Shown: piece by piece, positions 39,228 through 60,672 of the stretch
Position numbering within the stretch: position 1 is the first letter of the stretch
Layout: every line of letters begins with the position of its first letter
Origin: Aegilops tauschii subsp. strangulata
Lineage: Eukaryota > Streptophyta > Magnoliopsida > Poales > Poaceae
Assembly (NCBI RefSeq): GCF_002575655.3
Contig: NC_053036.3
Location: forward strand, 649,409,387-649,473,386
DNA: 64,000 nt
Reading direction: 5' to 3'
Notes under the pieces: model-generated
Told to the model about the DNA's origin: nothing
Database searches by the model: none
The model's input: only the letters and a program-made list of their open reading frames with translations
Translations under genes and position numbers: made by a program

Positions 39228-39520
39228 CACTAGTAGAAAACGGGGCAAAGGTCACAGGGCAGTTTTCACATTAGCCCCGGTTCAGTCACGAACCGGGACC
39301 CATGGGGGCATTCGTCCCGGTTTGTGAGCCCAGGGGGCCGGCCGGGGCCTCGTGGGCATTGGTCCCGGTTCGTATGGAACGATTTGTCCCGGTTCGAGCC
39401 ACGAACCGGGACTAATGGTCCTCGCTCCTGGCCCACAACCATTTGTCCTGGTTCTTGGCATGAACCGGGACAGAAGGCCCGGATTTAGTACCGGTTCATG
39501 CCACGAACCGGGACCAATGA
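39228..39520 (+). repeat. Left TIR and subterminal repeats of the large CACTA
   Basis: After the CACTAGTAGAAAA end come repeated CCCGGTTCG and CACGAACCGGGAC units, often as inverted pairs. In CACTA elements such repeats bind the element's own DNA-binding protein. Confidence 0.88.
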
Positions 39521-39525
39521 GGTGC

Positions 39526-39534
39526 CTATATATA
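39526..39534 (+). promoter_or_regulatory. TATA box of the transposase transcription unit
   Basis: TATATATAC-type sequence (within CTATATATACCCC) lies right after the last left subterminal repeat and about 380 bp before the first coding exon. A start near 39560 is expected. No other promoter is visible before the transposase. Confidence 0.6.
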
Positions 39535-39908
39535 CCCCATCACCACGGCAGAGCACTCCACAGTGCTCTCTTTTTCTCTGGCTGGCGAGGGGAGGGCTTT
39601 GTGGTGCTCTAGCTCACCTCCTATGCACATGAGGTGTTCGATGAAATGCCCGAGCCACACTAGTTAATCTTTCTCCTCTCGAAACTCGACCTCCGAGCTC
39701 CATTTTCCTCGAGATTTGTCTAGGTTTAGCGGCCCGTCACGTCCCACTCCCGTCTTCACCGCCGTCGACCGCCCGCGCCGATCTCGTCGCCGGCAACACC
39801 GTGGTGAGCCTCTTGTTCTTATCTTCTTTTTGAAAGAAAAAATTCTTACTTTAGATAGATACTTGTCTAATTTTCTTACTATTTTATTCCTTCTTATTAC
39901 ATAGTGCG

Positions 39909-40356
39909 ATGGTTTTGGTATCCGCCCCCGTCGGCCCTCGTCCTGTCTATGATTCGGATGTGGTATATATTATCTTTTTATAACTATTTGATTCATTTAT
40001 TGTTTATGACAAATATACCGACCAGCGTGACATAGATTTTATTTATCTAGGAGGTGGTTGAACCGGAAATTCTAACCGACCCTATTGTTGAGAGGTTAAA
40101 TTTAGTTGAAGAAGAAAACAATTACTTGAAGGAAAAAATAAAAAAAATTGAGGAGGAGAAGATGATATTGGAGTTGCATGTTGCGGATGTCGTCGATGAT
40201 CACAAGATCAAGATGGATGCAATGCGCTTGAAGATTAGAAAGATTAGAAAATATGCCATTCATACCGAGGCTTGGTATCATTATGCCGTTGGATCAATTG
40301 TTACCTTGGTTGCGATTATGATCGCATTTGTTTTCGCATTGAAATGTTTTACATAG
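39909..40356 (+). CDS. Small coiled-coil membrane protein, two exons
   Basis: The model joins 39909-39962 and 40051-40356 across a GT..AG intron and gives 119 residues. The N terminus is Pro/Val-rich. Residues about 30-85 form a strongly charged coiled coil (VEEENNYLKEKIKKIEEEK). The last 30 residues contain one hydrophobic span (YHYAVGSIVTLVAIMIAFVF), typical of a tail-anchored membrane protein. It lies between the left promoter and the transposase. The transposase ATG follows a splice acceptor, so both could come from one alternatively spliced transcript. I know of no function for it. It has no stop or frameshift. Confidence 0.65.
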
Positions 40357-40540
40357 TTTCAATGTATGGTTTAATTAATTAGATGCTCTGGAGAGCTATA
40401 TATTTGTTGTTAGATGAGAACTATGTATGTACTTTGGTTCTAATGTGATGATGAACTTCTATTAATTTGGTCACTTAATTATCTATTCATGATGTTCTGT
40501 AATGGTTTTTGACACACTTAATTATATATAATGCACGCAG

Positions 40541-43500
40541 ATGGACCGGCAATGGATGTACGGTGACAGACACACCTCCGAGTACATTAAGGGCGTGCAT
40601 GATTTTCTCGAAGTGGCTGAGGCAAACAAGCAGAATGGTTTTATGTGTTGTCCATGCCCTACATGTGGGAATACGAAGTCTTACTCTGATCGGAAAATCC
40701 TTCATGCCCACCTGCTTTACAAGGGTTTCATGCCACACTATAATGTTTGGACGAGGCACGGAGAAATGGGGGTTATGATGGAAGACGGCGAAGAAGAAGA
40801 GGACGATGACAACTATGTGCCCCCTGAATACGGTGATGCTGCAACGGGGGAAGCTGCTGAAGATCAAGAGGAACCAGACGATGTGCCCAATGATGCTGCA
40901 AGGGGGGAAGCTGCTGAAGATGAAGAGGAACCAGTGCCCGATGATGATGATCTCCGTCGGGTCATTGTCGATGCAAGGACGCAATGCGAAAGTCAAAAGG
41001 AGAAGCTGAAGTTCGATCGCATGTTAGAGGATCACAAAAAAGGGTTGTACCCCAATTGCGAAGATGGCAACACAAAGCTCGGTACCGTACTGGAATTGCT
41101 GCAGTGGAAGGCAGAGAATGCTGTGCCTGACAAAGGATTTGAGAAGCTATTGAAAATATTGAAGAAGAAGCTTCCAAAGGATAATGAATTGCCCGACAGT
41201 ACATACGTAGCAAAGAAGGTCGTATGCCCTCTAGGATTGGAGGTGCAGAAGATACATGCATGCCCTAATGACTGCATCCTCTACCGCGGTGCATACAAGG
41301 ATCTGAACGCATGCCCGGTATGCGGTGCATTGCGGTATAAGATCAGACGAGATGACCCTGGTGATGTTGACAGCGAGCCCCCCAGGAAGAGGGTTCCTGC
41401 GAAGGTGATGTGGTATGCTCCTATAATACCACGGTTGAAACGTCTGTTCAGAAACGAAGAGCATGCCAAGTTGATGCGATGGCACAGTGAGGACCGTAAG
41501 AAAGACGGGAAGTTGAGAGCACCCGCTGACGGGTCGCAGTGGAGAAAAATCGAGAGAAAGTACTGGGCTGAGTTTGCAGCTGACCCAAGGAACGTATGGT
41601 TTGGTTTAAGTGCGGATGGCATTAATCCTTTCGGGGAGCAGAGCAGCAATCACAGCACCTGGCCCGTGACTCTATGTATGTATAACCTTCCTCCTTGGAT
41701 GTGCATGAAGCGGAAGTTCATTATGATGCCAGTTCTCATCCAAGGCCCTAAGCAACCCGGCAACGACATTGATGTGTACCTAAGGCCATTAGTTGAAGAA
41801 CTTTTACAGCTGTGGACTGGAAACGGTGTACGTACGTGGGATGAGCACAAACAGGAGGAATTTAACCTGCACGCATTGCTGTTTGTAACCATCAACGATT
41901 GGCCCGCTCTCAGTAACTTTTCAGGACAGACAAACAAGGGATACCACGCATGCACGCACTGTTTAGATGACACTGAAAGTATGTACCTGGACAAAAGCAG
42001 GAAGAATGTGTACCTAGGCCATCGTCGATTTCTTCCGACCAACCATCAATGTCGAAAGGAAGACAAGCATTTCAAAGGCGAGGCAGATCACCGGAAGAAG
42101 CCCGCCATGCGTACCGGTGATCACGTACTTGCTATGGTTAATGATTTACATGTAATCTTTGGAAAGGGTCCCGGCGGACTAGCTGTTCCGAATGACGTTG
42201 AGGGACACGCACCCATGTGGAAGAAGAAATCTATATTTTGGGACCTACCCTACTGGAAAGAGCTAGAGGTCCGCTCTTCAATCGACGTGATGCACGTGAC
42301 GAAGAACCTTTGCGTGAACCTGCTAGGCTTCTTGGGCGTGTATGGGAAGACAAAAGATACACCTGAGGCACGGGAGGACCTGCAACGTTTGCACGAAAAA
42401 GACGGCATGCCTCCGAAGCAGTATGAAGGTCCTGCCAGCTACGCTCTTACGAAAGAAGAGAAAGAAATCTTCTTTGAATGCCTGCTCAGTATGAAGGTCC
42501 CGACTGGCTTCTCGTCGAATATAAAGGGAATAATAAATATGCCAGAGAAAAAGTTCCAGAACCTAAAGTCTCATGACTGCCACGTGATTATGACGCAACT
42601 GCTTCCGGTTGCATTGAGGGGCCTTCTACCGGAAAACGTCCGATTAGCCATTGTGAAGCTATGTGCATTCCTCAATGCAATCTCTCAGAAGGTGATCGAT
42701 CCAGAAATCATACCAAGGCTAAGGAGTGATGTGGCACAATGTCTTGTCAGTTTCGAGCTGGTGTTCCCACCATCCTTCTTCAATATCATGACGCACGTCC
42801 TAGTTCATCTAGTCGACGAGATTGTCATTCTGGGGCCCGTATTTCTACACAATATGTTCCCCTTTGAGAGGTTCATGGGAGTCCTAAAGAAATATGTCCG
42901 TAACCGCGCTAGGCCAGAAGGAAGCATCTCCATGGGCCATCAAACAGAGGATGTCATTGGGTTTTGTGTTGACTTCATTCCCGGCCTTGAGAAGATAGGT
43001 CTCCCTAAATCGCGGTATGAGGGGAGACTGACTGGAAAAGGCACGCTTGGAGGGGGGAACTCAATAATATGCAGGGACGGATATTCTTGGTCTGAAGCAC
43101 ACTACACAGTTCTACAGAACTCTACCTTGGTGACCCCATATGTCGATGAACACAAGAACAGTCTGCGCTCCGAACACCCGGAGCAGTGTGACGACTGGAT
43201 TACATGTGAACACATCAGGACTTTCAGCAGTTGGTTGGAAACACTTCTCAGAGGTGACACCACTGTTTGTGATGAGTTGTACTCGTTGTCCAGGGGACCA
43301 TCTTCGACTGTATTGACTTACGAAGGATACAAGATAAATGGGAATACATTTTACACGATCGCCCGAGATCAAAAGAGCACCAACCAAAACAGCGGTGTCC
43401 GCTTTGATGTAGCAACCGAGAGGGGAAAGGACACATATTATGGTTACATAATGGACATATGGGAACTTGACTACGGACATGATTTTAAGGTCCCTTTGTT

Positions 43501-43903
43501 TAAGTGCAAATGGGTCAATCTGTCAGGAGGCGGGGTACAGGTAGACCCACAGTACGGAATGACAACAGTGGATCTGAACAATCTTGGGTACACTGACGAA
43601 CCGTTCGTCCTAGCCAATGATGTGGCACAGGTTATCTATGTGAAGGACATGTCTACTAGACCGAGGAAAAGAAAAGATAAGGAAGCGAATACATCATACG
43701 ATGAGCCAAAGCGGCACATAGTTCTTTCAGGAAAAAGGGACATTGTGGGAGTGGAGGGCAAGACAGACATGTCTGAAGATTATGAAAAGTTTCATGAAAT
43801 TCCTCCCTTCAAAGTCAAGGCTGACCCAAGCATCCTGATAAACGATGAAGATTATCCATGGTTATGGCGCAATAAGCAAATGACACAAGCGAAGAAAAAG
43901 TGA
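40541..43903 (+). CDS. TNP2-type CACTA transposase (intact)
   Basis: An uninterrupted 1120-codon frame begins at an ATG directly after a splice acceptor (CACGCAG, 40534-40540). Residues 1-75 form the N-terminal zinc-binding transposase-associated domain (CCPCPTCGNTKS). An acidic Glu/Asp-rich segment follows (about 78-145), then the Transposase_21 core with an Asp in SADGINPFG (about residue 359) and one in SSIDVMHVTKN (about 582). DUF4218-like (about 690-830) and DUF4216-like (about 970-1050) regions follow. The C terminus is Lys-rich. TNP2-type enzymes cut and join element ends. The length is full for the family. No stop or frameshift is seen, unlike every retrotransposon gene in the window. 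Confidence 0.93.
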   Translation: MDRQWMYGDRHTSEYIKGVHDFLEVAEANKQNGFMCCPCPTCGNTKSYSDRKILHAHLLYKGFMPHYNVWTRHGEMGVMMEDGEEEEDDDNYVPPEYGDAATGEAAEDQEEPDDVPNDAARGEAAEDEEEPVPDDDDLRRVIVDARTQCESQKEKLKFDRMLEDHKKGLYPNCEDGNTKLGTVLELLQWKAENAVPDKGFEKLLKILKKKLPKDNELPDSTYVAKKVVCPLGLEVQKIHACPNDCILYRGAYKDLNACPVCGALRYKIRRDDPGDVDSEPPRKRVPAKVMWYAPIIPRLKRLFRNEEHAKLMRWHSEDRKKDGKLRAPADGSQWRKIERKYWAEFAADPRNVWFGLSADGINPFGEQSSNHSTWPVTLCMYNLPPWMCMKRKFIMMPVLIQGPKQPGNDIDVYLRPLVEELLQLWTGNGVRTWDEHKQEEFNLHALLFVTINDWPALSNFSGQTNKGYHACTHCLDDTESMYLDKSRKNVYLGHRRFLPTNHQCRKEDKHFKGEADHRKKPAMRTGDHVLAMVNDLHVIFGKGPGGLAVPNDVEGHAPMWKKKSIFWDLPYWKELEVRSSIDVMHVTKNLCVNLLGFLGVYGKTKDTPEAREDLQRLHEKDGMPPKQYEGPASYALTKEEKEIFFECLLSMKVPTGFSSNIKGIINMPEKKFQNLKSHDCHVIMTQLLPVALRGLLPENVRLAIVKLCAFLNAISQKVIDPEIIPRLRSDVAQCLVSFELVFPPSFFNIMTHVLVHLVDEIVILGPVFLHNMFPFERFMGVLKKYVRNRARPEGSISMGHQTEDVIGFCVDFIPGLEKIGLPKSRYEGRLTGKGTLGGGNSIICRDGYSWSEAHYTVLQNSTLVTPYVDEHKNSLRSEHPEQCDDWITCEHIRTFSSWLETLLRGDTTVCDELYSLSRGPSSTVLTYEGYKINGNTFYTIARDQKSTNQNSGVRFDVATERGKDTYYGYIMDIWELDYGHDFKVPLFKCKWVNLSGGGVQVDPQYGMTTVDLNNLGYTDEPFVLANDVAQVIYVKDMSTRPRKRKDKEANTSYDEPKRHIVLSGKRDIVGVEGKTDMSEDYEKFHEIPPFKVKADPSILINDEDYPWLWRNKQMTQAKKK

Positions 43904-44096
43904 AGACTTTCTCCCGCAACTATTATGATGATAGCATGCCAACTTTGTAATAGACGAGTATGATACCATTGTCCGTTTTGTACAAGAAGTGCATCTAGTT
44001 TTTGCCGTAACCCTCTCAACTTTCTTGCACATGCTATGTGGATGAAATGATGATACCATGCCAACTTTCAACCTTTTCAGAGTTCATTTGAAATGC
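43904..44096 (+). other. Transposase 3' untranslated region
   Basis: Short AT-rich sequence without a coding frame follows the transposase stop. A GATGATA.CATGCCAACTTT unit is repeated at 43927-43947 and 44048-44068. Nothing else is recognised. Confidence 0.5.
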
Positions 44097-44119
44097 TTTA
44101 TAAGCCCTGAGTGCAGAGA
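44097..44119 (+). repeat. Duplicated TATA/start fragment of the RNA-gene promoter
   Basis: TTTATAAGCCCTGAGTGCAG (44099-44118) recurs at 44447-44466, where it forms the TATA-to-start region of the plus-strand RNA promoter. The first copy lacks the upstream element and is probably a rearrangement footprint. Confidence 0.8.
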
Positions 44120-44153
44120 GGTTAGGCCCGTAAGCCTGCTTTAGAGAGGAGCT
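44120..44153 (-). ncRNA. Truncated 5' part of candidate Pol III RNA B (copy 1)
   Basis: On the minus strand from about 44153 the sequence GCTCCTCTCTAAAGCAGG, then CTTACGGGCCTAA, matches the 5' part of the second copy (53838 downward). Matching begins 2 nt before the predicted start. No hairpin or T-run follows here, so this copy looks truncated. Confidence 0.45.
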
Positions 44154-44176
44154 CGACAGCTCAGGCGCACCGCACC

Positions 44177-44218
44177 TTATAAACAGTTGCGGCTCTCTCT
44201 TAGCTAGCGAGGTGGGAC
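44177..44218 (-). promoter_or_regulatory. U6-type promoter (USE + TATA), minus strand, copy 1
   Basis: On the minus strand, GTCCCACCTCG (44218-44208) is one base off the plant snRNA upstream sequence element RTCCCACATCG. TTTATAA (44183-44177) follows after 24 nt. That spacing is the one found in plant U6 (RNA polymerase III) promoters. Confidence 0.65.
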
Positions 44219-44249
44219 TAAAATCACCACCACGCCGCTGTGCAAGGCC

Positions 44250-44385
44250 ATTGGTCCCGGTTGGTGGCACGAACCGGGACCAATTCCCCCTTTGGTCCCT
44301 GTTGGTGCCACGAACCGGTACTAATGAGGCTGTGAGCCCACGAGCACCTTTAGTACCTGTTCGTGGCATGAACCGGTACTAGAGT
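44250..44385. repeat. Internal subterminal-type repeats between divergent RNA promoters
   Basis: Three inverted-pair units of the type GGTCCCGGTTGG...CGAACCGGGACC lie at about 44252-44283, 44292-44325 and 44350-44383. They sit exactly between the minus promoter (44177-44218) and the plus promoter (44410-44454). Confidence 0.85.
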
Positions 44386-44409
44386 TTCTTACTAGCTAAG
44401 CAGTTTTTT

Positions 44410-44454
44410 AGTCCCACCTCGCTAGCTGAGAGGCACTAGGAGCGGTTTTATAAG
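44410..44454 (+). promoter_or_regulatory. U6-type promoter (USE + TATA), plus strand
   Basis: AGTCCCACCTCG (44410-44421) differs by one base from the plant snRNA upstream element. TTTATAAG (44447-44454) follows after 25 nt. With U6 geometry, transcription should begin about 23 nt after the TATA box, near 44477. An AGCCCA at about 44336 could be a monocot-specific promoter element (RGCCCR), but that match is weak. Confidence 0.7.
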
Positions 44455-44476
44455 CCCTGAGTGCAGAGACGATGAA

Positions 44477-44610
44477 GAAGAGGCGCAGTGCTCACGTTGC
44501 TTAGCTTCAAGCCTTGAGGAATAAGGTAGACTGCATCGAGCTATGTGCAGTGCAGTCTACACTATTCCGAAAGGCTTGAAGCAAATCAACACGCATTGCG
44601 CCTCTTTTTT
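44477..44610 (+). ncRNA. Candidate Pol III hairpin RNA A
   Basis: The predicted transcript is almost entirely one foldback. Stem parts pair 44478-44487 with 44597-44606, 44504-44515 with 44571-44582, 44518-44523 with 44563-44568, and 44526-44535 with 44551-44560. The upper stem has 28 pairs in 32 positions, with a 15-nt loop (44536-44550). Six T (44605-44610) follow, the standard RNA polymerase III terminator. A U6-type promoter upstream would place the start at the foot of the stem. It resembles a plant microRNA precursor in shape. I do not recognise its sequence as a known microRNA. Expression and target are unknown. Confidence 0.65.
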
Positions 44611-45129
44611 ATTTTTAATCATTAAAAGCAAAAAGAATTTTCATAAATAACTTTTTTTGATAGAAACTTTAATAGCAGAAAGAATTATCATAAAGTAAAA
44701 TAAATAAGTAATTAGAAACAAAATAAAATAAAATAAATAAGTTTTTTGTTGTAAGTAGAAATAAAACAAAATAAACATAGCAAAAAAGAAAATAAAAAAA
44801 CTAAATACAGCAAAAATAATTTTCATAAAGAACTAATGGCACTAATAGAAAGTAAAATAATAAGTAATTAGAAACAAAATAAAATAAAATAAATAAGTTT
44901 TTTGTTGTAAGTAGAAATAAAACAAAATAAATATAGCAAAAAAGAAAATAAAAAAACTAAATACAGCAAAAAGAATTTTCATAAAGAACTAATGGCACTA
45001 ATAGAAAGTTTATATGTTTTCTAAAACTAATGGCACTAACAGACAATTTATAATTTTGCTGACCTAAAAGCAAAAGGAATTAAAAAATAAAGCAAAAAAC
45101 AAAAGAAAATAAATAATGCAAAAAATTTA
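44611..45129. repeat. A-rich region with 157-bp tandem duplication
   Basis: The sequence is AT-rich and low in complexity. A unit containing GTAATTAGAAACAAAATAAA begins at about 44707 and again at about 44864, with near-identical sequence through about 45010. No coding frame is present. Confidence 0.85.
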
Positions 45130-45231
45130 AAAAACTGCCACCTATTGGGCCACCACGGCCTGAATAGGACTAGAAACCCAACCTGGGCCAGGATTCAGGC
45201 CCGCAGAAGGCCCAATAGGCCAACAGACAGC
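45130..45231 (-). ncRNA. Candidate Pol III RNA B (copy 2), hairpin and terminator part
   Basis: On the minus strand this contains a foldback in which CCTATTGGGCC pairs with GGCCCAATAGG and GGCCTGAAT with ATTCAGGCC. CAG and then six T follow (45135-45130). Before the BARE-like insertion it was contiguous with 53792-53838, which has a U6-type promoter. The restored transcript length would be about 143 nt. The insertion separates promoter and hairpin by 8.5 kb, so this copy should be silent. Confidence 0.5.
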
Positions 45232-46936
45232 TGTTGGGAATCGTAGCATAATTTAAAATTTTCCTACGCTCACCAAGATGCATCTATGGATTCTACTAGC
45301 AACGAGGGGAAAGGAGTGCATCTACATACCCTCGTAGATCGCGAGCGGAAGCGTTCCAATGAACGTGGATGACGGAGTCGTACTCGCCGTGAGCCAAATC
45401 ACCGATGACCGAGTGCCGAACGTACGGCACCTCCGCGTTCAACACACGTACGGTGCAGCGACGTCTCCTCCTTCTTGATCCAGCAAGGGGGGAGGAGAGG
45501 TTGATGGAGATCCAACAGCACGACGGCGTGGTGGTGGATGTAGCAGGTCTCACGCAGGGCTTCGCAAGCTTCTGCGAGAGAGAGAGAGAGGTGTTGCAGG
45601 GGAGGAGGGAGGCGCCCAAGGCTTAGATGTTGCTGCCCTCCCTTCCCCCCACTATATATAGGGCCAAGGGAGAGGGGGGGGCGCAGCCTTGCCCCTTCCT
45701 CCAAGGAAGGGTGCGGCCAGGGGGGAGTCCTTCCCCCCCAAGGCACCTCGGAGGTGCCTTCCCCCTTTAGGACTCTCCCCTTTTTCTTATCTCTTGCGCA
45801 TGGGCCTCTTGGGGCTGGTGCCCTTGGCCCATATAGGCCAAGGCGCACCCCTTACAGCCCATGTGGCCCCCCGGGGCTGGTGGACCCCCGGACCCCTTTC
45901 GGCACTCCCGGTACAATACCGATAAAGCGCGAAACTTTTCCGGCGACCAAAATAAGACTTCCCATATATAAATCTTTACCTCCGGACCATTCCGGAACCT
46001 CTCGTGACGTCCGGGATCTCATCCGGGACTCCGAACAACTTTCGGATTTCCGCATACATATATCTCTACAACCCTAGCGTCACCGGACCTTAAGTGTGTA
46101 GACCCTACGGGTTCGGGAGACATGCAGACATGACCGAGACACCTCTCCGGTCAATAACCAACAGCGGGATCTGGATACCCATGTTGGCTCCCACATGCTC
46201 CACGATGATCTCATCGGATGAACCACGGTGTCGAGGATTCAATCAATCCGTATGCAATTCCCTTTGTCAATCGGTATGTTACTTGCCCGAGATTCGATCG
46301 TCGGTATCCCAATACCTAGTTCAATCTCGTTACTGGCAAGTCTCTTTACTCGTACCACAATGCATGATCCCGTGACTAACGCCTTGGTCACATTGAGCTC
46401 ATTATGATGATGCATTACCGAGTGGGCCCAGAGATACCTCTCCGTTTACACGGAGTGACAAATCCCAGTCTCGATCCGTGCCAACCCAACAGACACTTTC
46501 GGAGATACCCGTAATGCACCTTTATAGTCACCCAGTTACGTTGTGACGTTTGGCACACCCAAAGCACTCCTACGGTATCCGGGAGTTGCACGATCTCATG
46601 GTCTAAGGAAAAGATACTTGACATTGGAAAAGCTCTAGCAAACGAAACTACACGATCTTTTATGCTATGCTTAAGTTGGGTCTTGTCCATCACATCATTC
46701 TCCTAATGATGTGATCCCGTTATCAATGACATCCAATGTGCATAGTCAGGAAACCATGACTATCTGTTGATCAACGAGCTAGTCAACTAGAGGCTTACTA
46801 GGGACAGGTTGTGGTCTATGTATTCACACATGTATTACGATTTCCGGACAATACAATTATAGCATGAATAATAGACAATTACCATGAACAAAGAAATATA
46901 ATAATAACCATTTATTATTGCCTCATATTACCAACA
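45232..46936 (-). repeat. BARE-like 3' LTR
   Basis: The LTR is 1705 bp. It lacks a short TAGGGC-type stretch near its inner end (46924) and the duplicated GGTGGACCCCC block that the partner LTR has. The polypurine tract follows on the minus strand (46937-46949 on plus: GTCTCCCACTTGC). Confidence 0.92.
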
Positions 46937-49900
46937 GTCTCCCACTTGCACTAGAGTCAATAATCTAGTTCACATCACCATGTGATTAACATTCACTGGT
47001 CACATCACCATGTGACCAACATCTAAAGATTTTACTAGAGTCAACAATCTAGTTCACATCACTATGTGATTATCACTCAATGTGTTCTGGTTTGGTCATG
47101 TTATGCTTGTGAGAGAGGTTATTAGTCAACGGGTCTGAACCTTTCAGAACCGTGTGCTTTACGAATATCTATGTCATCTTGTGGATGCTACCACGCGCTA
47201 TTTGGAGCCATTTCAAATAATTGCTCTACTATACGAATCCGGTTTACTACTCAGAGTTATCCGGATTAGTGTCAAAGTTTGCATCGACATAACCCTTTAC
47301 GACGAACTCCTTTCCACCTCCATAATCGAGAAAAATTCCTTAATCCACTAGGTACTAAGGATAAGTTCGACCGCTGTCATGAGATCCTTTCCGGATCACC
47401 ATTGTACCCCCTTGACCAACTCATGGCAAGGCACACTACATGTCCGGTACACAGCATAGCATACTATAGAGCCTACGTCTAAAGCATAGGGGACGACCTT
47501 CGTCCTTTCTCTATCTTCTGCTGTGGTCAGGTCTTGAGTCTCACTCAATACTCACACCTTGTAACACAGCCAAGAACTCCTTCTTTGCTGATCTATTTTG
47601 AACTCTTTCAAAATCATGTCAAGGTGTGCTGTCTTTTGAAAGTATCATCAGGCGTCTTGATCTATCTCTATGGATATTGATGCCCAATATGTAAGCAGCT
47701 TTACCCAGGTCTTCCTTTGAAAAACTCCTTTCAAACAACCCTTTATGCTTTCCAGAAATTTTACATCATTTCGGATCAACAATATGTCATTCACATATAC
47801 TTATCAGAAATGTTGTAGCGCTCCCACTCACTTTATTGTAAATACAAGTTTCTAACAAACTTTGTATAAACCCAAAAACTTTGATCACCCCATCAAAGCG
47901 TATATTCTGACTCCGAGATGCTTGCTCTGATCCATGGAAGGATCGCTGGAGCTAGCATACCTTTTAGCATCCTTAGGATCGACAAAACCTTTCTGATTGT
48001 ATCACATACAACCTTTCCTTACGAAAACTGGTAAGGAAACTTGTTTTGACATCCATCTGCCAGATTTCATAAATGTAGCTAATGCTAACATGATTCCGAC
48101 GGACCTAAGCATCGCTACGGATGAGAAAAACTCATCGTAGTCAACTCCTTGAACTTGTGAAAATACTCTTTGCCACAAGTCGAGCTTCATAGAAGGTAAC
48201 ATTACCGTCCATGTCCGTCTTCTTCTTAAAGATCCATTTATCTCAATGGCTTGCCGATCATCGGGGCAAGCTCACCAAAGTCCATGCTTTGTTCTGATAC
48301 ATGGATTCTATCTCGGATTTCATGGCCTCGAGCCATTCGTCGGAATATGGGCCCACCATTGCTTCTCCATAGCTCGTAGGTTCATTGTTGTCTAGCAACA
48401 TGACTTCCAAGACAGGATCACGCATTACTCTGAAGTAGTGCGCATCCTCATCGTCCTACGAGGTTTGGTAGTGACTTGATCCGAAGTTTCATGATCACTA
48501 TCATAAGCTTCCACTTCAATTGGTGTAGGTGCCACAGGAACAACTTCCTGTGCCCTGCTACACACTAGTTGAAGCGACGGTTCAATAACCTTATCAAGTC
48601 TCCACCATCCTCCCACTCAATTCTTTCGATAGAAACTTTTCCTCGAGAAAGGACTCGTTTCTAGAAGCAATTACTTTTGCTTCCAGATCTGAAATAGGAG
48701 GTATACCCAACTATTTTTGGGTATTCTATGAAGATGCATTTATCCGCTTTGGGTTCGAGCTTATCACCTGAAACTTTTTCACAGAAGCATCGCAGCCCCA
48801 AACTTTTAAGAAACGACAACTTAGGTTTCTATGAACGGTGTCGTCTCAACGGAATTGCGTGGTGCGCCTTTTAAAGTGAATGCGGTTGTCTCTAATGCCT
48901 AACCCATAAACGATAGTGGTAATTTGATAAGAAACATCATGGTATGCACCATATCCAATAGGGTGCAGTTATGATGTTCGGACACACCATCACACTATGG
49001 TGTTCCAGGCGGTATTAATTGTGAAACACTTTCCACAATGTCTTAATTGTGTGCCAAACTCGTAACTCAGATACTCATCTCTATGATCATATCACAGACA
49101 TTTTATCCTCTTGTCACGATGATCTTCAACTTCACTCTGAAATTACTTGAACATTTCAATAATTCAGACTTGTGTTTCATCAAGTAAATACACTCAGCGT
49201 CTACTCAAATCATCTGTGAAGTAAGAACACAACGATATCCACTGTATGCTTCAGCACTCATTGGACTGCATACATCAAAATGTATTACTTCCAATAAGTT
49301 GCTCTCTTGTTCCATCTTACTGAAAACGAGGCCTTTCAGTCATCTTGCCCATGTGGTATGATTTGCATGTCTCAAGTGATTCAAAATCAAGTGAGTCCAA
49401 ACGATCCATCTGCATGGAGTTTCTTCATGCATATATACCAATAGACATGGTTCGCATGTCTCAATCTTTTCAAAAACGACCGAGTCCAAAGATCCATCTA
49501 CATGGAGCTTCTTCATGCGTTCTATACCAATATGACTCAAATTGCAGTGCCACAAGTATGTGGTACTATCATTACTATTTTATATCTTTTGGCACGAACA
49601 CGTGTATCAATACGATCGAGATTCATTTTAGGTGCAAGACCATTGAAGGTATTATTCAAATAAACAGAGTAACCATTATTCTCCTTAAATGAATAACCGT
49701 TTTGCGGTAAACATAATCCAATCATGTTCAACGCAAACACCAAATCTCGATGGTAGAGGGAGCATGCGATGCTTGATCACATCAACCTTGGAAACACTTC
49801 CAACACATATCGTCATCTCACCTTTAGCTAGTCTCCATTTATTCCGCAGCTTTTATTTCGAGTTACTAACACTTAGCAACCGAACCAGTATCTAATACCC

Positions 49901-52068
49901 TGGTGCTGCTAGGAGTACTAGTAAAGTACACATTCATATAACATATATCCAATATACTTCTGTCGACCTTGCCTGCCTTCTCATCTACCAAGTATCTAGG
50001 GTAGTACTGCTTTAGTGACCGTTCCTCTCATTACAGAAGCACTTAGTCTCGGGTTTGGGTTCAACCTTGGGATTCTTCACTAGAGCAGCAAACGACTTGC
50101 TATTTCATGAAGTATCCCTTTTTCCCTTGCCCTTCTTAAACTAGTGGTTTTACTAACCATCAACAATTGATGCTCCTTCTTGATTTCTACTCTCGCGGTG
50201 TCAAACATCGCGGATAGCTCAAGGATCATCATAATTGTCCTTGATATGTTATAGTTCATCACGAAGCTCTACTAGCTTGGTGGCAGTGACTATGGAGAAC
50301 TATCACTATCTCATCTGGGAGATTAACTCCCACTCGATTCAAGCGATTGTGGCACTCAGGTAATCTGAGCACACGCTCAACGATTGAGCTTTTCTCCCTT
50401 AGTTTGCAGGCTTAAGAAACTTGTCAGAGGTCTCATACCTCTTGACGTGGGCACTAGTCTGAAATCCCAATTTCAGTCTTCGAAACATCTCTCATGTTTT
50501 GCGACGTTTCAAAAACGTCTTTGGTGCCACAATTCTAAACCGCACTGAACTATCACGTAGTCATCAAAATGTGTATGTCAGATGTTTCGTAACATCTACA
50601 GACGACGCTGAGGTTCAGCACACCGAGCGGTGCATTAAGGACATAAGCCTTCTGTGCAGTAATGAGCACAATCCTCAGTTTACGGACCCAGTCCGCATAA
50701 TTGCTGCTACCAACTTTCAACTAAATTTTCTCTAGGAACATATCTTAACTAGTAGAACTAAAGCGCAAGCTATGACATAATTTGCAAATACCTTTTTGAC
50801 TATGTTCATGATAATGAAGTTCATCTGATTATGAACTCCCACTCAGATAGACATCCCTCTAGTCATCTAAGTGAAACATGATCCGAGTTTAACTAGGTCG
50901 TGTCCGATCATCACGTGAGACGGACTAGTCAAGATCGGTGAACATCTCCATGTTGATCGTATCTTCTATACGACTCATGCTCGACCTTTTGGTCCTCCGT
51001 GTTTCGAGGCCATGTCTGTACATGCTAGGCTCGTCAAGTCAACCTAAGTGTATTGCGTGTGTGCCGAGGCCATGTCTGTACATGCTAGGCTCGTCAACAC
51101 CCGTTGTATTCGAACGTAAGAATCTATCACACCCGATCATCACGTGGTGCTTCGAAACGACGAACCTTCGCAACGGTGCACAGTTAGGGTGAACACTTTC
51201 TTGAAATTATTATAAGGGATCATCCTACTTGCTACCGTCATTCTAAGCAAATAAGATGCAAAAACATGATAAACATCACATGCAATCAAATAGTGACCGG
51301 CATGACACCATGATTATGCTCCTTTGATCTCCATCTTCGGGGCACCATGATCATCTTTGTCACCGGCATGACACCATGATCTCCATCATCATGATCTCCA
51401 TCATTGTGTCTTCATGAAGTTGTCACGCCAACGATTACTTCTACTTCTATGGCTAACTCGTTTAGCAACAAGTAAAGTAATTTACATGGCGTTATTCAAT
51501 GACACGCAGGTCATGCAAAATAATAAAGACAACTCCTATGGCTCCTGCCGGTTGTCATACTCATCGACATGCAAGTCGTGATTCTTATTACAGGAAAATG
51601 ATCAATCTCATACATCACATATATCATTCATCACATCTTCTGGCCATATCATATCACATAGCACTTGCTGCAAAAACAAGTTAGACGTCCTCTAATTGTT
51701 GTTGCAAGTTTTTTTTACGTGGTTTATAGGTTTCTAGCAAGAACGTTTCTTACCTACGTATGACCACAACGTGATTTGCCAATTTCTATTCACCCTTCAT
51801 AAGGACCCTTTTCATCGAATCCGTTCCGACTAAAGTAGGAGAGACAGACACCCGCTAGCCACCTTATGCATCTAGTGCATGTCAGTCGGTGGAACCTGTC
51901 TCACGTAAGAGTACGTGTAAGGTCGGTCCGGGCCGCTTCATCCTATAATGCCGCCGAAACAAGAAAAGACTAGTAGCGGCAAGAAGAATTGGCAAACTCA
52001 ACGCCCACAACTGCTTTGTGTTCTACTCGTGCATAGTAACTACGCATAGACCTGGCTCATGATGCCAC
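46937..52068 (-). pseudogene. BARE-like internal region with degraded gag-pol
   Basis: Only short frames remain on the minus strand. They match, in Copia order, a gag fragment with a Lys-rich end (50080-50262), GAG-pre-integrase (WHCNLSHIGIERMKKLHVDG, 49340-49555), the linker before RT (48425-48616) and an RT block with QVQGVDYDEFFSSVAML (48002-48202). Frames change every few hundred bases. Two direct duplications are visible: GAGGCCATGTCTGTACATGC at about 51008 and 51066, and a roughly 100-bp block at 49345-49430 and 49450-49525. The leader (50740-52068) has no coding frame. Next to the 5' LTR, TGGCATCATGAG on the minus strand is a degenerate primer-binding site. Confidence 0.8.
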
Positions 52069-53791
52069 TGTTGGGAATCGTAGCATAATTTAAAATTTTC
52101 CTACGCTCACCAAGATGCATCTATGGAGTCTACTAGCAACGAGGGGAAAGGAGTGCATCTACATACCCTCGTAGATCGCGAGCGGAAGCATTCCAATGAA
52201 CGTGGATGACGGAGTCGTACTCGCCGTGATCCAAATCACCGATGACCGAGTGCCGAACGTACGACACCTCCGCGTTCAACACACGTATAGTGCAGCGACG
52301 TCTCCTCCTTCTTGATCCAGCAAGGGGGGAGGAGAGGTTGATGGAGATCCAACAGCACGATGGCATGGTCGTGGATGTAGCAGGTCTCCGGCAGGGCTTC
52401 GCAAGCTTCTGCGAGAGAGAGAGAGGTGTTGCAGGGGAGGAGGGAGGCGCCCAAGGCTTAGATGTTGCTTCCCTCCCTTCCCCCCACTATATATAGGGCC
52501 AAGGGAGAGGGGGGGGGCGCAGCCTTGCCCCTTCCTCCAAGGAAGGGTGCGGCCAGGGGGGAGTCCTTCCCCCCCAAGGCACCTCGGAGGTGCCTTCCCC
52601 CTTTAGGACTCTCCCCTTTTTCTTATCTCTTGCGCATGGGCCTCTTGGGGCTGGTGCCCTTGGCCCATATAGGCCAAGGCGCACCCCTTACAGCCCATGT
52701 GGCCCCCCGGGGCTGGTGGACCCCCTTGGTGGACCCCCGGACCCCTTTCAGCACTCCCGGTACAATACCGATAAAGCGTGAAACTTTTCCGGCGACCAAA
52801 ATAAGACTTCCCATATATAAATATTTACCTCCGGACCATTCCGGAACCTCTCGTGACGTCCGGGATCTCATCCGGGACTCCGGACAACTTTCGGGTTTCC
52901 GCATACATATATCTCTACAACCCTAGCGTCACCGGACCTTAAGTGTGTAGACCCTACGGGTTCGGGAGACATGCAGACATGACCGAGACACCTCTCCGGT
53001 CAATAACCAACAGCGGGATCTGGATACCCATGTTGGCTCCCACATGCTCCACGATGATCTCATCGGATGAACCACGGTGTCGAGGATTCAATCAATCCGT
53101 ATGCAATTCCCTTTGTCAATCGGTATGTTACTTGCCCGAGATTCGATCGTCGGTATCCCAATACCTAGTTCAATCTCGTTACCGGCAAGTCTCTTTACTC
53201 GTACCACAATGCATGATCCCGTGACTAACGCCTTAGTCACATTGAGCTCATTATGATGATGCATTACCGAGTGGGCCCAGAGATACCTCTCCGTTTACAC
53301 GGAGTGACAAATCCCAGTCTCGATCCGTGCCAACCCAACAGACACTTTCGGAGATACCCGTAATACACCTTTATAGTCACCCAGTTACGTTGTGACGTTT
53401 GGCACACCCAAAGCACTCCTACGGTATCCGGGAGTTGCACGATCTCATGGTCTAAGGAAAAGATACTTGACATTGGAAAAGCTCTAGCAAACGAAACTAC
53501 ACGATCTTTTATGCTATGCTTAAGTTGGGTCTTGTCCATCACATCATTCTCCTAATGATGTGATCCCATTATCAATGACATCCAATGTCCATAGTCAGGA
53601 AACCATGACTATCTGTTGATCAACGAGCTAGTCAACTAGAGGCTTACTAAGGACAGGTTGTGGTCTATGTATTCACACATGTATTACGATTTCCGGACAA
53701 TACAATTATAGCATGAATAATAGACAATTACCATGAGCAAAGAAATATAATAATAACCATTTATTATTGCCTCTAGGGCATATTACCAACA
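52069..53791 (-). repeat. BARE-like 5' LTR
   Basis: The LTR is 1723 bp and nearly identical to 45232-46936. It carries one extra copy of a 15-bp unit at about 52728-52742. Confidence 0.92.
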
Positions 53792-53838
53792 ACAGCATAG
53801 TGTGAGATTAGGCCCGTAAGCCTGCATTTGAGAGGAGC
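53792..53838 (-). ncRNA. Candidate Pol III RNA B (copy 2), 5' part
   Basis: From about 53838 on the minus strand the sequence GCTCCTCTCAAATGCAGG, then CTTACGGGCCTAA, matches copy 1 at 44153 downward, starting at the predicted +1. It is cut off by the BARE-like element. The 3' part is at 45130-45231. Confidence 0.5.
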
Positions 53839-53862
53839 TCTAGAGGGCAGCTGCAGCGGGGC

Positions 53863-53904
53863 TTATAAACCACTTCGAGCCCCTCTCAACTAGCGAGGTG
53901 GGAC
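53863..53904 (-). promoter_or_regulatory. U6-type promoter (USE + TATA), minus strand, copy 2
   Basis: GTCCCACCTCG (53904-53894) is followed after 24 nt by TTTATAA (53869-53863) on the minus strand. It points towards the RNA B sequence. The sequence between TATA and +1 differs from copy 1, whereas the sequence after +1 is conserved. Confidence 0.65.
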
Positions 53905-53937
53905 TAAACTTTTGGCTGCGACGCGGGCAGCAAGAGG

Positions 53938-54136
53938 CCTTTGGTCCCGGTTGGTGGCACCAACCGGGACCAATGCCCCCCCTTTTGTCCCGGTTGGTGC
54001 CAACAACCGGGACCAAAGGCCGCCGCTTCCCACACATTGGGCTGCTGAAAAGAGGCCTTTGGTCCCGGTTGGTGGCACCAACCGGGACTAATGCCTACCT
54101 TTAGTCCCGGTTGGTGCCACGAACTGGGACTAAAGG
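53938..54136. repeat. Second internal cluster of subterminal-type repeats
   Basis: Four palindromic units of the type GTCCCGGTTGGTGGCACC with AACCGGGAC lie at about 53940-53973, 53983-54017, 54058-54091 and 54101-54135. They separate the minus-strand U6-type promoter from the TATA box of the second protein gene. Confidence 0.88.
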
Positions 54137-54140
54137 ATTT

Positions 54141-54150
54141 GATATATAAG
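54141..54150 (+). promoter_or_regulatory. TATA box of the Ulp1-domain gene
   Basis: GATATATAAG lies 5 nt after the last repeat of the cluster. Transcription should begin near 54172, followed by a C-rich leader (54172-54500). Confidence 0.6.
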
Positions 54151-54171
54151 TCCACACTTAGGAAATTTTCG

Positions 54172-54815
54172 ACATACCTCACCAGTTGCCCCCGACGCCG
54201 CCAGGATGCCCGTGCTCGCCGTCGCCGCCCGCTCCTCATCGCCGTCGCCCCGCGCCCTTGCCCCGACGGGTCGCCGCCCGGTGCTCGTCGCCGTCGCCCT
54301 GCCCCCACGCGCCGCCCCGCCTCGTGCTCCCTTGCTAGCGCGCACCGCCTCGGCGCCCCGAGCCCCGCGCCCGGCCCGCGCGTGCTCGCCGGCGCCCTTG
54401 CCACCCCCGCCCCGTCCCGGCCCCGTGCGCTGGCGCCCTCGTCGCCCCCGCCCCCGCCGTCGCCATCGTCCTAGCCGCCCCCGCTGTGAGAGCCGCCGCC
54501 CTGGCTCTGTTTTTTATTTTTATTAGTTTAATTTTTTTGTTCATATGTGATGTATATGTGTATGTGGCTATAATGTATATGTGAACAAAAAAATGTATGT
54601 ATGTAGATGTTCAAAATGTATGAATATATATGTCAAAAATGTTTTTTTGTTCATAGAAAGTTTTTTGTTCATATATAGAAAGTTTTTTGTTCATATATAG
54701 AAAGTTTTTATATATGACAATGGATATATATTCGATATATATGAGAAATGATGATCCACATGGAAAAGTTTTATATATGCAAAAGTTACAATTTTAGAAA
54801 AGTTTTATATATCTA
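54172..54815 (+). other. GC-rich leader then AT-rich intron-like sequence
   Basis: 54172-54510 is extremely C/G-rich, with long Pro/Arg/Ala frames in several phases that look like composition artefacts. I read it as an untranslated first exon. 54510-54815 is AT-rich with repeated TTTTTTGTTCATATATAGAAAG units and is probably the start of a long intron ending at 56256. Confidence 0.45.
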
Positions 54816-55090
54816 GCTAGGAAGGGAAGAAGAAAAAGAAGGATAGGAAAGAAGAAAATAAGAAGAGGAAAGAAAGAAGAAGAGGAGAGGAAGAAGAGGA
54901 GATATAAATAAGAAGAGGAAAAGAGAAGAAAAAGAAGAGGAGAAGAAGAAAGGAATAGAGGAGAAGAAGAAAAAATAGAAAATATTCTATTTTTTCTTCT
55001 TCTCCTCTTTTTTTTCTTCTTTTTTTTCTTCAATCCTCTCCTCTATTCCTTTCTTCTTCTCTCCTCTTTTTATTTCTTCTTCGTTTTCTT
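54816..55090. repeat. Polypurine/polypyrimidine inverted repeat
   Basis: About 160 bp almost purely A/G (54820-54979) is followed by about 100 bp almost purely T/C (54985-55085). The arms are complementary around AAATATT at about 54979-54985, and pairing extends outward (GAGGAGAAGAAGAAAAAATA with TATTTTTTCTTCTTCTCCTC). Confidence 0.85.
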
Positions 55091-55104
55091 ATGTTTTATC
55101 GGGT

Positions 55105-56040
55105 CTGTCGTCGTCGATATATACCCCTCCCGATAACTTCAACACGAGGGGGGGGGGTCGATATACCCCCTCCCCGATAACATTATTTTCCCGTGTATAT
55201 ATGTCGTCGTTGTCGATATAACCCCCTCCAGATAACTTGAACACGTGGGGGGGGGTCGATATTATAGGATATCTATCTAAATACGGCTCCTATCGTTTAA
55301 GGTTAGTAAATACATACTAGGAAATGCTCTTCAGGGATACCAGAACTGGAAGATCCTGTCAAGGGGAAACAGGACCTTAATAAGCGCCATCCCGAGACTT
55401 GGACTCGAGGGATGGTAAGATCAATAGGAGAAGGAGATATGATACAATTACTATGATCAGGATACCTTATATGAGCCTAACATTATTTTCCCGTGTATGT
55501 ATGTTGTCGTTGTCGATATTATCCCCTCCCGATAACTTCAACACGAGGGGGGATAACTTCAACATGAGGGGGGGTCGATATACCCCCTCCCCGATAACAT
55601 TATTTTCCCGTGTATATATGTCGTCGTTGTCGATATAACCCCCTCCTGATAACTTCAACACGTGGGGGGGGGGGGTCGATATACCCCCTCCCCGATAACA
55701 TTATTTTCCCGTGTATGTATGTTGTCGTTGTCGATATTACCCCCTCCCGATAACTTCAACACGAGGGGGGATAACTTCAACACGAGGGGGGGTCGATATA
55801 CCCCCTCCTCGATAACATTATTTTCCCGTGTATGTATGTCGTCGTTGTCGATATAAAACCCCCTCCCGATAACTTCAACACGTGGGGGGGGGTCGATATA
55901 TACCCCCTCCCCGATAACATTATTTTCCCGTGTATGTATGTCGTCGTTGTCGATATATATAACTCCCTCCCAGATAACTTTGACATGATGGACGGTCGAT
56001 ATGTATACCCCCTCTCGACCGTGATAACTTATACCACGGG
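55105..56040 (+). repeat. Minisatellite, unit about 100-120 bp
   Basis: At least six units are seen, containing CCCGATAACTTCAACACG, then a G-run with GTCGATAT, then CCCCGATAACATTATTTTCC and GTCGTCGTTGTCGATAT. Units start near 55190, 55489, 55609, 55708, 55829 and 55929. About 225 bp of unrelated sequence (about 55262-55485) interrupts the array. It lies in the presumed long first intron of the Ulp1-domain gene. Confidence 0.85.
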
Positions 56041-56261
56041 AGCACCCCCCGGCCCTCTCGCTCGACCAAAACTCTCGAGGACACCCAAACCCTAGAAAAA
56101 AACGATGTCGGTCTCCTACCCCCTCCCGCCGCGCCCCTACCCTTGAAGCGTTGCCTAGGCCACCCCAAACCCGGAATAAGCTAGGTCTACGTTTGCACTA
56201 ATATATCCACCTGCTGTCATGTTTGTGTAATAATTGCCATGTTGTAATATTTGCAGAAACA

Positions 56262-59200
56262 ATGGAGCACGGACGAGATGAGCAAGCAGAAGAGGTGTTG
56301 GGGGACATAATCTTAGCCGGAGGTGATATCTTGTCGTATCTTAACGACAATGATGGTCTGGAAGAACAGGGTGAAGAAGCAGGCTGCGGTGATCGAAGAG
56401 TGGAGGAGGAAAGACATGATTATGATGGCTCCGGTGACCCAATGCTGGTGCAAGAAGGAGCCCGTGGTGACGGCTCCGGTGACCGAACAGAGTCCGGCCA
56501 GGTAAATATATTAGTTAAGCCTGTGCTGACTAGCTAATTGATGCATTCATTGTTTTGGTATGTACACATATTAATTAACACTCGTCTTTCTTCTTTTTTC
56601 TAGCCCTCCGGATCGAGCACAACTGCGGTAAAGAGACGAGGCCCGAAGAGAAAGTTGCGCTCGGATGAGAGGTTTGAGATCACAGCAATCGCACGCGACG
56701 GCCAACCGATTGAACCCCTCCGGACAAAGGATGCTTTTGCTGCTCAGTGCGGGGTTCTAGTTAGGGACAAGATCCCGATCAGCATCCACCAATGGTATAA
56801 GCCTAAGAAGGAAGACCCTGAGGTGTCTTATGTCGATGATATGCAGAAAGATGATCTTTGGACTGAGCTGAAGGCAAATTTCACCCTACCGCCAGAGGAG
56901 GATCCGGAGAAGCCAGTTAAAGAGCAATTAATCAAGTCTCATGCTCTTAAGAAGATGGCAGACCTATTCAGGAGGTGGAAGAATGAGCTGAAAACGTTTG
57001 TCGACAAAGAAGAGACACCTGAATTCATCGGCCGGTATGAGAAGATCAGAGATCACTGGCCCGCATTTGTGGCCCACAAGACATCGGAAAAGAGTAAGAA
57101 GATGTCAGCGACAAACAAGATGAATGCTGCGAAGAAGAAGCTTCACCATCGCACGGGGTCAGGTGGCTACCTCAAAGCCCGGCCTAAGTGGGCCAAGTCT
57201 GAGAGGGATCTGGTTGATAAAGGGATCGAACCACAGACAATGAACTGGCCAGACCGTTGCCGGACTTTGTTCTTCGGGGCTGGCGGAACCTTGGACCCTG
57301 TATCAGGGAGGTGTCGTTGGACGGACGAGCAACTTGCAATACCCGTCAAGAAGATTCAGCACTATATCGATGCAGCGCAGCAAGGGACGTTCGTTCCAGA
57401 CAGAGAGAACGACGAGCTCACAATGGCCCTCGGGAATCCTGAGCAGCCTGGACGGACACGAGGCATGCCAGGCTCCGTTCCGTGGAAGGCTGGTTTTCCG
57501 GACGCGGGCGGTTACAAAAGCCAGGAGAGGAGGAAAAAAGTGGAGCAGATCCAAATTCAGCGTCTGCACGAAAGGGTTCAAGTGCTAGAGGAACGAGACA
57601 GCAATAGAGATGCCGAAACTGCCCCCGAAGCTACACCGCCATCTCAGCGTAGAAGCAGCGTGGCTTCCACCGAGCTGCCTCAGCTGGAGCATGCGGCTAC
57701 TCCTAGCTACCCCGTGGATGCTATCACGGAGTCTCAACATTGCCACCTTATGGCGGAATGGCAGAACTTGAAAGTCAAGGCGGCTGTTGGCTCTGTTTTA
57801 CCTACTGAACCCGGCGCAACCTACCACTGCCGGTAGATTCCAGATGGATATGCTAGGGTGACGGTGGATGAAATAACGGAGGGATTTGAGGACCTCCAGC
57901 TTGACCACCCTACCGGTGAAGGGGAGACTCGGCTGGGTTTAGCTCTAAAGACTCCATGCCTATGGCGGAAGGAGCTCATCAAGCTTCCGAACTGGAAGGC
58001 TCCGGCGAGTAAGGGCACTCCGCCTCCTCCTCCGGCGAGTGACCAGGGCACTCAGCCTCCTTCTCCGGCGCGTGGCGGCACTCCGCCTCCTTCTCCGCCA
58101 GCGCCGGCGCGCCAGAGCAGCCAGCCTCCTCCTTCTCTGCCTCGTCAGCAAGGGCGGAAGAGACCCGCCGCTGCTGCGGCTGCTCCGGCGCGTCGTAGTC
58201 CTTCTCATCCGCCTCGTAAGCAAGGAAAGAAGACAGCCGCAGCCGCTCCGTCTGCTCTGCCGGCGTCTAGCAGTATAGCTGCCAGAGGTGGGAGGCAATA
58301 CAGATTCGGTCCTTCTCTGAAGACTCCAGAGAAGTCACCATATGAGAGGACCGAGGAGGAGAACGCGAAGATCGTGCGAGCCGAAGTGAAGAACTTCTTT
58401 GAAGGGGTCAAAGCAAAGAAACATCCACCTCCAGAGGAGAAGGTGGATCCGGTGAAAGCAAAGCGCACTCTGGCTGCCCTGACAAAACCACCAAAGTCTC
58501 CGCCAAAAGGCAACTATGAGCGCGTTCTTGCAAAGGCATATGCCGAAGCGGAGCGGTCGGGAAGTACTGTCAGTGATAAAAGGATGAAAGAACGACGAGC
58601 TGGGAAAAAAATTGCCCAGCTCCGCGAACAAGAGAACCAATCGTGCCCCCCGCTCAAGGTGTCAAAAGACATCGTCGCTAATGATCCGGGTATGGTGCCC
58701 GGTTATACCGATCTTGGAGATTACCTGCCCGACGATGTACATTATGAAATCATGGAGGTGGACGAACACAAATATCATTACGGGAAGCCTCTCGTCAAAG
58801 ATGTCAAATCTCTAAGCACGATGATGCGAGGACTACATGATTGGTACATGAAAAGCTGCAGAGAGTCTGATGGGATGAGTACTTTAACGCTGAGAGTTAA
58901 ACCGGAGCATGACCTCGTTGGACTTGAACTGCTGAATGTTCCATTTGAGGATTTCTTCCAGTTTTACAATCTAATGTCCCTCGATGAAACAACGATCACT
59001 TGCTACTGTCTGTAAGTAGTACTACTTCTGTCATTAAGTCTCTCTATATAGGTCAGCTCTTTCATTGCATGTATTTATACTTATCCTCACTATATTATGC
59101 AGATTGAAGATCGCCGAATTGAAGAAAAGACAAATCGGTGATATTGGGTTCATTAACACAAATCTCATAGATGATTATCAGGTTAAATTTCATGCCAAAG

Positions 59201-60084: not shown

Positions 60085-60454
60085 GAGATTGTATTGTAAG
60101 AGATAATTATTGTATATATGTAGCCGGTAGTGTCGGATAGATATACGAGAACTTGTTGTTCGACCAATATCTCGGAGAAGGAGAGGTGGTCGATATCACT
60201 TCTCTCTGTATGCATATATATATGTTCATGACGATCTTCTGTTTCCTTCATTTGATTACTAGCTAGCGTGTCTACTCCTCTCCATACGTATATAGTACGT
60301 AGCGTCGACAAAGCACGGAGATAAGAGAGGACACTTCTCTCTATTAATTAGCTAGCTAACACAATATATGAAACACCTAAATTAACCCCCCAAAACCCCT
60401 AAACCACCCCCTTTCAAAAAAAACAAAAACCTCAGCTCCTGCCAGGTGCTGACG
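60085..60454 (+). other. 3' flank of the Ulp1-domain gene
   Basis: AT-rich sequence with no coding frame. It contains several TATATATG tracts and a C-rich patch (60387-60412). I see no RNA gene or insertion in it. Confidence 0.5.
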
Positions 60455-60672
60455 CGTGGATGCCTATTGGTCCCGGTTGGTGGCACCAACCGGACCAAAG
60501 GCCCTCCTGCCTGGGCTCCCCGCACCGGCCACGTGGACGGCCTTTAGTCCCGGTTCGTGTAAGAACCGGGACTAAAGGGCTAGGGCATTAGTAACGACCC
60601 TTTAGTCCCGGTTCCAGAACCGGGACTAAAGGCCCTTATGAACCGGGGTAAAAGCCCCTTTTCCTACTAGTG
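60455..60672 (-). repeat. Right TIR and subterminal repeats of the large CACTA
   Basis: Inverted-pair units (TTTAGTCCCGGTT with AACCGGGACTAAA) lie at about 60467-60500, 60542-60576 and 60600-60631. The inverted terminal CACTAGTAGGAAAA end follows (60672-60659). Confidence 0.9.

Follow-up and report, generated by a model that had tools for sequence, protein, structure and literature searches.

Can a transposon carry its own small-RNA gene, and could such a gene be read by polymerase III rather than polymerase II? The question is raised by a stretch of 64,000 nucleotides from Aegilops tauschii subsp. strangulata (hereafter the window), in which a preliminary description had placed a U6-type gene for a long hairpin RNA inside a large CACTA element. 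We set out to define the carrier element, the hairpin and its putative product, and the promoter that might drive it.

The hairpin lies in a CACTA element that has itself been invaded by a retrotransposon:

39228..60672, no strand assigned: CACTA element of 21,445 bp, carrying promoters A to C and the hairpins
40532..43903, plus strand: TNP2-type transposase open reading frame with Transpos_assoc, Transposase_21, DUF4218 and DUF4216 domains, the frame open from end to end
45232..53791, no strand assigned: nested LTR retrotransposon of 8,560 bp, LTRs 97.7% alike, target site duplication ACAGC; it splits unit C

Both termini of the element (39228 and 60672) are intact and read CACTAGTAGAAAA.../...TTTTCCTACTAGTG, with the terminal pattern CACTAGTAG(A/G)AAAA, and the flanking duplication is TCA. 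The CACTA...TAGTG ends, the 3-bp target duplication and a TNP2 transposase with four Pfam domains (Transposase_21 with an E value of 3.4e-87) class it as CACTA (DTC) and bear out the earlier placement of the hairpin gene inside such an element. After subtraction of the nested retrotransposon and the duplicated 5-bp target, its length is 12,880 bp. Promoters and hairpins sit between the element's two genes, around clusters of a subterminal-type repeat.

Clusters of this GGTCCCGGTTGGTG...CACGAACCGGGACC repeat are seen near the CACTA ends (39290-39520 and 60467-60625) and in the middle of the element (44250-44384 and 53936-54136), the latter between the two genes and beside the three U6-type promoters. 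The second gene region, 56604-59015, is a single frame with one in-frame stop at 57834-57836, and its first part gives a sub-cut-off match to Transposase_24.

Is the arrangement around the hairpin that of a U6-type gene? The unit in question, which we call B, consists of the following parts:

44411..44421, plus strand: upstream element (USE) of promoter B, GTCCCACCTCG, one base off RTCCCACATCG (10/11)
44447..44453, plus strand: TATA box of promoter B, TTTATAA, 25 nt past the USE
44477..44610, plus strand: predicted RNA B, the MIR9654 hairpin precursor, 134 nt, starting with G at 44477 and closed by T6
44605..44610, plus strand: T6 at the foot of the hairpin, a terminator of the polymerase III type

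An upstream element one base off consensus, a TATA box 25 nt later, a hairpin foot at the expected start distance and a closing run of six T had all been claimed for this locus, and each of them is found. The predicted start of RNA B, the G at 44477, lies 30 bp from the start of the TATA box. The foldback that extends from there to 44610 reaches -80.8 kcal/mol, compared to a shuffle mean of -36.1 (z -12.05; none of 200 shuffles as good), and when extended by 7 bases on the 5' side and 10 bases on the 3' side it reaches -87.5 kcal/mol (z -14.55). TTTT is absent from the 128-nt body (44477-44604). Predicted start and T6 fall on the two feet of the hairpin stem. The T-run alone is weak evidence, because the AT-rich DNA past the foot makes such runs cheap: a run of five or more T would begin as near the foot by chance in about 2% (element-wide density of such runs) to 8% (local AT-rich tract) of cases.

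The AT-rich tract directly past the hairpin holds, at 44692-45009, two 156-bp copies arranged head-to-tail and 98% alike. At gathering thresholds, Rfam gave no match in the 64-kb window, and a tRNA scan of the window with bacterial settings found none; a sub-threshold Rfam match of mir-4803 at the hairpin (35.4 of 90 bits) was set aside. A search for a donor gene of the hairpin arms, in which both were compared with the rest of the window, returned at most 11 identical bases (E 0.6 or worse), and a 21-amino-acid reading of the 3' arm had no match in the PDB.

What small RNA would this hairpin yield? Six words of 10 to 13 nucleotides, taken from along both arms, were looked up in the main texts of the literature, and this led to a microRNA and its star that are both present in the hairpin without a single mismatch:

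44565..44586, plus strand: mature miR9654, UUCCGAAAGGCUUGAAGCAAAU (tae-miR9654c, tae_44, Ta-miR036-3p), exact, 22/22
44502..44523, plus strand: miR9654 star, UAGCUUCAAGCCUUGAGGAAUA, exact to the published star, 22/22

The mature sequence has been published as tae_44 (PMC3997425), as Ta-miR036-3p (PMC4015866) and as tae-miR9654c (PMC4591353), and the star in PMC3997425. With up to three mismatches allowed, the window holds just one further match to miRNA or star, and this is the miRNA arm's own complement. The predicted fold pairs the first base of the miRNA with 44521, and the star extends 2 nt past that position, to 44523; likewise, it pairs the first base of the star with 44584, and the miRNA extends 2 nt past that position, to 44586. 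The modelled duplex leaves four bases unpaired in the miRNA and three in the star, carries 2-nt 3' overhangs at both ends, and thus has Dicer-type cut geometry. Since an exact published miRNA and its exact star are paired here with such overhangs at both ends, the hairpin at 44477-44610 is, judged by its sequence, a MIR9654 precursor, and by the same identity the published miR9654 reads come from this sequence or from sister copies. The wheat family tae-miR9654 (a/b/c; tae_27, tae_43-45, tae_47, tae_49; Ta-miR036-3p) is thus known already, its mature and star sequences being identical to the hairpin arms here. The suggestion that the hairpin could feed small RNAs is substantiated by these exact matches and the geometry of the duplex.

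Which polymerase would transcribe it? According to PMC9845283, plant type-3 polymerase III genes have a USE, a TATA box near -30, a short distance between the two and a T-run at the end, and PMC11961915 describes USE-TATA spacing as a major determinant of polymerase III recognition. The MIR9654 unit presents a USE matching at 10 of 11 positions, a TATA box 30 bp before the predicted start, and a T6 terminator. The exact USE GTCCCACCTCG occurs three times in the 64 kb, always within the CACTA element and each time with a perfect TTTATAA, the gaps being 24, 25 and 24 nt for promoters A, B and C; their identity in USE and TATA is partly built in, because the copies were found by those motifs. The combination of exact USE and exact TATA at 20-35 nt, seen three times in the window, is found in none of 20 first-order Markov random windows.

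Expression in monocots additionally requires MSP elements (RGCCCR), according to PMC11961915. The 200 nt upstream of the USE contain one AGCCCA for B (at 76 nt), one for C (at 138 nt) and none for A, compared to a chance expectation of 0.24-0.40 per 200-nt stretch. The C variant of the USE is also known from wheat and Triticeae U6 promoters. The dicot USE consensus TMCCACATCG given in PMC12268498 does not cover this C, the seventh base of TCCCACCTCG.

Of the notion of a U6-type gene, the snRNA-type promoter, the polymerase III spacing and the bracketing of the hairpin by predicted start and T-run stand as read from the letters; the transcribing enzyme, polymerase III, we infer from this anatomy. 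On the balance of these features, the MIR9654 gene between the two CACTA genes is probably written as a type-3 (U6-like) polymerase III gene.

Two further promoters of the same kind, A and C, are present in the same CACTA element and go beyond what had been described before:

44208..44218, minus strand: USE of promoter A, GTCCCACCTCG; TATA box at 44183-44177, gap 24, predicted start 44154
43895..44154, minus strand: predicted RNA A, running for 260 nt up to a T5; 34 of its first 37 nt are the same as in RNA C
53894..53904, minus strand: USE of promoter C, GTCCCACCTCG; TATA box at 53869-53863, gap 24, predicted start 53840
53797..53840, minus strand: leader of predicted RNA C, 44 nt, parted from its hairpin by the nested retrotransposon
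45129..45231, minus strand: hairpin of predicted RNA C with T6 (45134-45129); hairpin alone -52.7 kcal/mol, z -4.9, 0/300 shuffles as good

With the retrotransposon removed in silico, RNA C is 147 nt long and consists of the 44-nt leader, the hairpin and T6; folded as a whole it has a z of -2.8, with 1 of 200 shuffles as good. Promoter, hairpin and T-run therefore come together twice, and unit C repeats the plan of B. RNA A, at -50.9, folds no better than its shuffles (mean -57.0 over 100 shuffles). When A and C are compared, USE, TATA box and the first 37 nt past the predicted start are alike at 53 of 56 positions, whereas the stretches between them and the 16 nt just upstream are unlike (33/62; Fisher p 2e-7). 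The leader alone, which played no part in the motif search although its end was picked by the analyst, is alike at 34 of 37 positions (p 5e-5). This is how a gene would be conserved if its RNA and promoter elements were important. To judge by these units, the CACTA element appears to be a cassette for hairpin genes of the U6 type.

RNA A would be antisense to the 3' flank of the transposase gene, its T5 overlapping the last codons of the open reading frame, and it holds the complement of 23 nt of the TATA region of promoter B (44097-44119 repeats 44447-44469). Six 12-mers from the arms of the RNA C hairpin were absent from the literature main texts searched, and this search brought up no published small RNA of that hairpin. 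Viral contigs contain no match to the USE-TATA pattern, to the miRNA or to the A/C leader, and the two stretches there that fit a TNP2 pattern are not relatives. An 18-mer of the A/C leader has one match in prokaryote genomes (L001), where about 7 are expected by chance.

Plant MIR genes are in general polymerase II genes. Could MIR9654 be an ordinary member of this class that resides in a CACTA element, its U6-type motif a relic or a fragment captured from a host promoter, without a role in driving it, and its precursor a read-through or TATA-driven polyadenylated transcript? The EST CA737852 is cited in PMC4591353 as the precursor of tae-miR9654c (low read counts, 0.03-4.4 TPM, the star unseen in that study), and PMC4015866 also took its precursors from ESTs; such an EST, cited for one family member, points to polyadenylation of the transcript of one copy or more. 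In rice, the CACTA miRNA miR820 is made from transcripts of an internal region of its element (PMC3459959), and the thin MSP support at promoters A to C favors polymerase II as well. This explanation has to contend, however, with USE-TATA gaps that in each of the three copies are of the polymerase III type (24/25/24), with the coincidence of start, foot and T6 around a body devoid of TTTT, and with a second unit, C, built to the same plan. We regard transcription by polymerase II as less likely than not.

Is the copy in the window itself active? The sources consulted describe a family of variants: six in PMC3997425 (tae_27, 43, 44, 45, 47, 49), all with one common star, others as miR9654a/b in PMC4029127 and miR9654b-3p in PMC5550412, and the name miR9654y appears in PMC10045996. 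Five of the PMC3997425 variants are each one change away from the copy here, all of them transitions, and miR9654a has two changes. Wheat studies report family members from developing grain, spikelets, callus and seedlings. Because the variants have one star in common and the names reach miR9654y, there would be many miR9654 loci, as a transposon-borne gene predicts. Other copies could make miR9654, with the present one a fossil, silenced despite its strong stem. This would be compatible with either polymerase, as those readings concern the design of the gene, and it fits with the retrotransposon within the element and the in-frame stop in the second gene region. Yet this copy has kept promoter B, the stem and T6 undamaged along with miRNA and star, the last two being exactly the published sequences, which makes a fossil rather unlikely. 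That the unit is a chance inverted duplication behind U6-like letters, processed to unspecific siRNA, is hardly credible: the window does hold 31 foldback pairs (arms of at least 30 nt, at most 200 nt apart), many of which, among the 25 of 31 listed, lie in simple repeats or CACTA subterminal-type repeats, but the published 22-mers pair so as to leave a 2-nt overhang at either end, random windows lack such a promoter (0 in 20), and two of the six arm words were found in wheat papers, both in miRNA or star, the latter being a weak argument, since the search covered main texts only, where a selection of miRNAs is listed.

How would a type-3 polymerase III gene, the reading we prefer, give rise to miR9654? 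USE and TATA box would set the start at about 44477, and polymerase III would copy a self-complementary RNA of 130 nt and terminate within the T6 that closes the foot; the product would be a long hairpin with a few U residues at its 3' end. A Dicer-like enzyme would then release the 22-nt miR9654 from 44565-44586 and the star from 44502-44523, and the guide, which begins with U, would be loaded into an Argonaute of the AGO1 class. Being 22 nt long, miR9654 could also trigger secondary siRNAs. The steps after RNA synthesis (Dicer-like, AGO1, siRNA triggering) follow what is generally known of plant miRNAs; the maturation enzymes, and expression of this very copy beyond that of sister copies, we infer. 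Unit C would represent a second unit of the same plan, now split by the retrotransposon, and promoter A would be a third promoter, one without a hairpin.

What might the guide recognize? Under an ungapped plant target-scoring scheme, the best plus-strand site for miR9654 outside the hairpin in the window falls in the transposase gene:

41615..41636, plus strand: miR9654-complementary site in the TNP2 open reading frame, codons D-G-I-N-P-F-G, score 7.5

The next site in the frame scores 12. The score of 7.5 was equalled by 0/500 dinucleotide shuffles and 5/500 codon shuffles of the reading frame, a test picked after the site had been noticed, and by 7 of 1000 shuffled miRNAs. For miR9654a the best TNP2 score is 8.5 (matched by 15/500 dinucleotide and 16/500 codon shuffles), for miR9654b it is 7.5 (1/500 and 7/500). 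When one strand of random 64-kb windows was scored, 1 of 10 held a better miR9654 site (5.5), and the best minus-strand site outside the hairpin (6692-6713, score 8) is within the random-window range. The TNP2 site is mismatched at position 11, and the hairpin arms share nothing else with TNP2. Cut-offs for plant miRNA targets are usually about 5 or less; as its score lies above them, the TNP2 site appears too weak to call as a target and serves as a lead only. The DGxNPFG motif is conserved in TNP2 proteins, and a sister or rival transposase with better-matching codons could be the real target. A more far-reaching proposal, in which one gene of a polymerase III hairpin cassette would be the source of a transposon-spread miR9654 family whose 22-nt guide hits the DGxNPFG codons of transposases and limits its own or rival CACTA elements, strikes us as quite improbable. 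In the accounts available, the published targets of miR9654 are predicted ones and vary between papers; for miR9654a-3p and one predicted target, PMC5632728 describes expression in opposite directions.

Like miR9654, rice miR820 is a 22/24-nt miRNA with a precursor inside a CACTA DNA transposon and in several copies (PMC3459959). Unlike miR9654, it has a known target, DRM2, from which its precursor apparently derived, and the passages of PMC3459959 at hand do not mention a U6-type promoter. With plant U6 and U3 genes (PMC9845283, PMC11961915), the unit described here has in common the USE, the TATA box near -30, the short distance between them and the T-run at the end; it differs in that its RNA is a miRNA-yielding foldback instead of a structural snRNA, in its weak MSP and in one off-consensus base of the USE. 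The wheat sequence JV867359 (PMC4591353) is likewise a long miRNA-like foldback, one that makes phased siRNAs, and is given in PMC4591353 as a locus separate from tae-miR9654c.

In the literature searched, we found no paper that links miR9654 with CACTA, the passages on miR9654 at hand naming neither CACTA nor a U6-type promoter, and none that joins a microRNA gene, polymerase III, a transposon and a hairpin. Judged by their titles, papers on CACTA and polymerase III promoters deal with other matters, those with the DNA words of promoter, leader and hairpin are not on the matter, and those containing the USE GTCCCACCTCG are not on U6 promoters. As the miRNA and CACTA-borne miRNAs are both already known, it is the CACTA home and the U6-type promoter of miR9654 that may be the new part. 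A U6-type polymerase III promoter, if confirmed in the plant, would be unusual for a plant microRNA. It would amount to a second way to make plant microRNAs, from about 200 bp and with no cap or poly(A) tail, and such a unit might work where the transposon's polymerase II promoters are shut. A wheat microRNA family whose published targets, in the sources at hand, are predictions would also gain a transposon origin, one that public read data allow to be checked straight away.

The surroundings of the CACTA element are themselves rich in insertions. Direct repeats at 22695-24036 and 62086-63426, 95% alike, look like an LTR pair that encloses the whole CACTA element; the open reading frames between them are Copia-type by eye, and the insertions would then be nested three deep. 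A second pair, 3420-4468 and 12075-13124, also 95% alike, flanks frames that are Gypsy-type by eye (7242-11987, minus strand) and was read as another LTR retrotransposon. Sub-threshold Rfam matches of MIR5387 (51.8 of 69 bits) and MIR8622 (59.2 of 197) on CACTA repeats were set aside. These matches, at 53941-54133, coincide with the subterminal-type repeats of the element, a hint that CACTA repeats of this type may have given rise to some annotated miRNA families.
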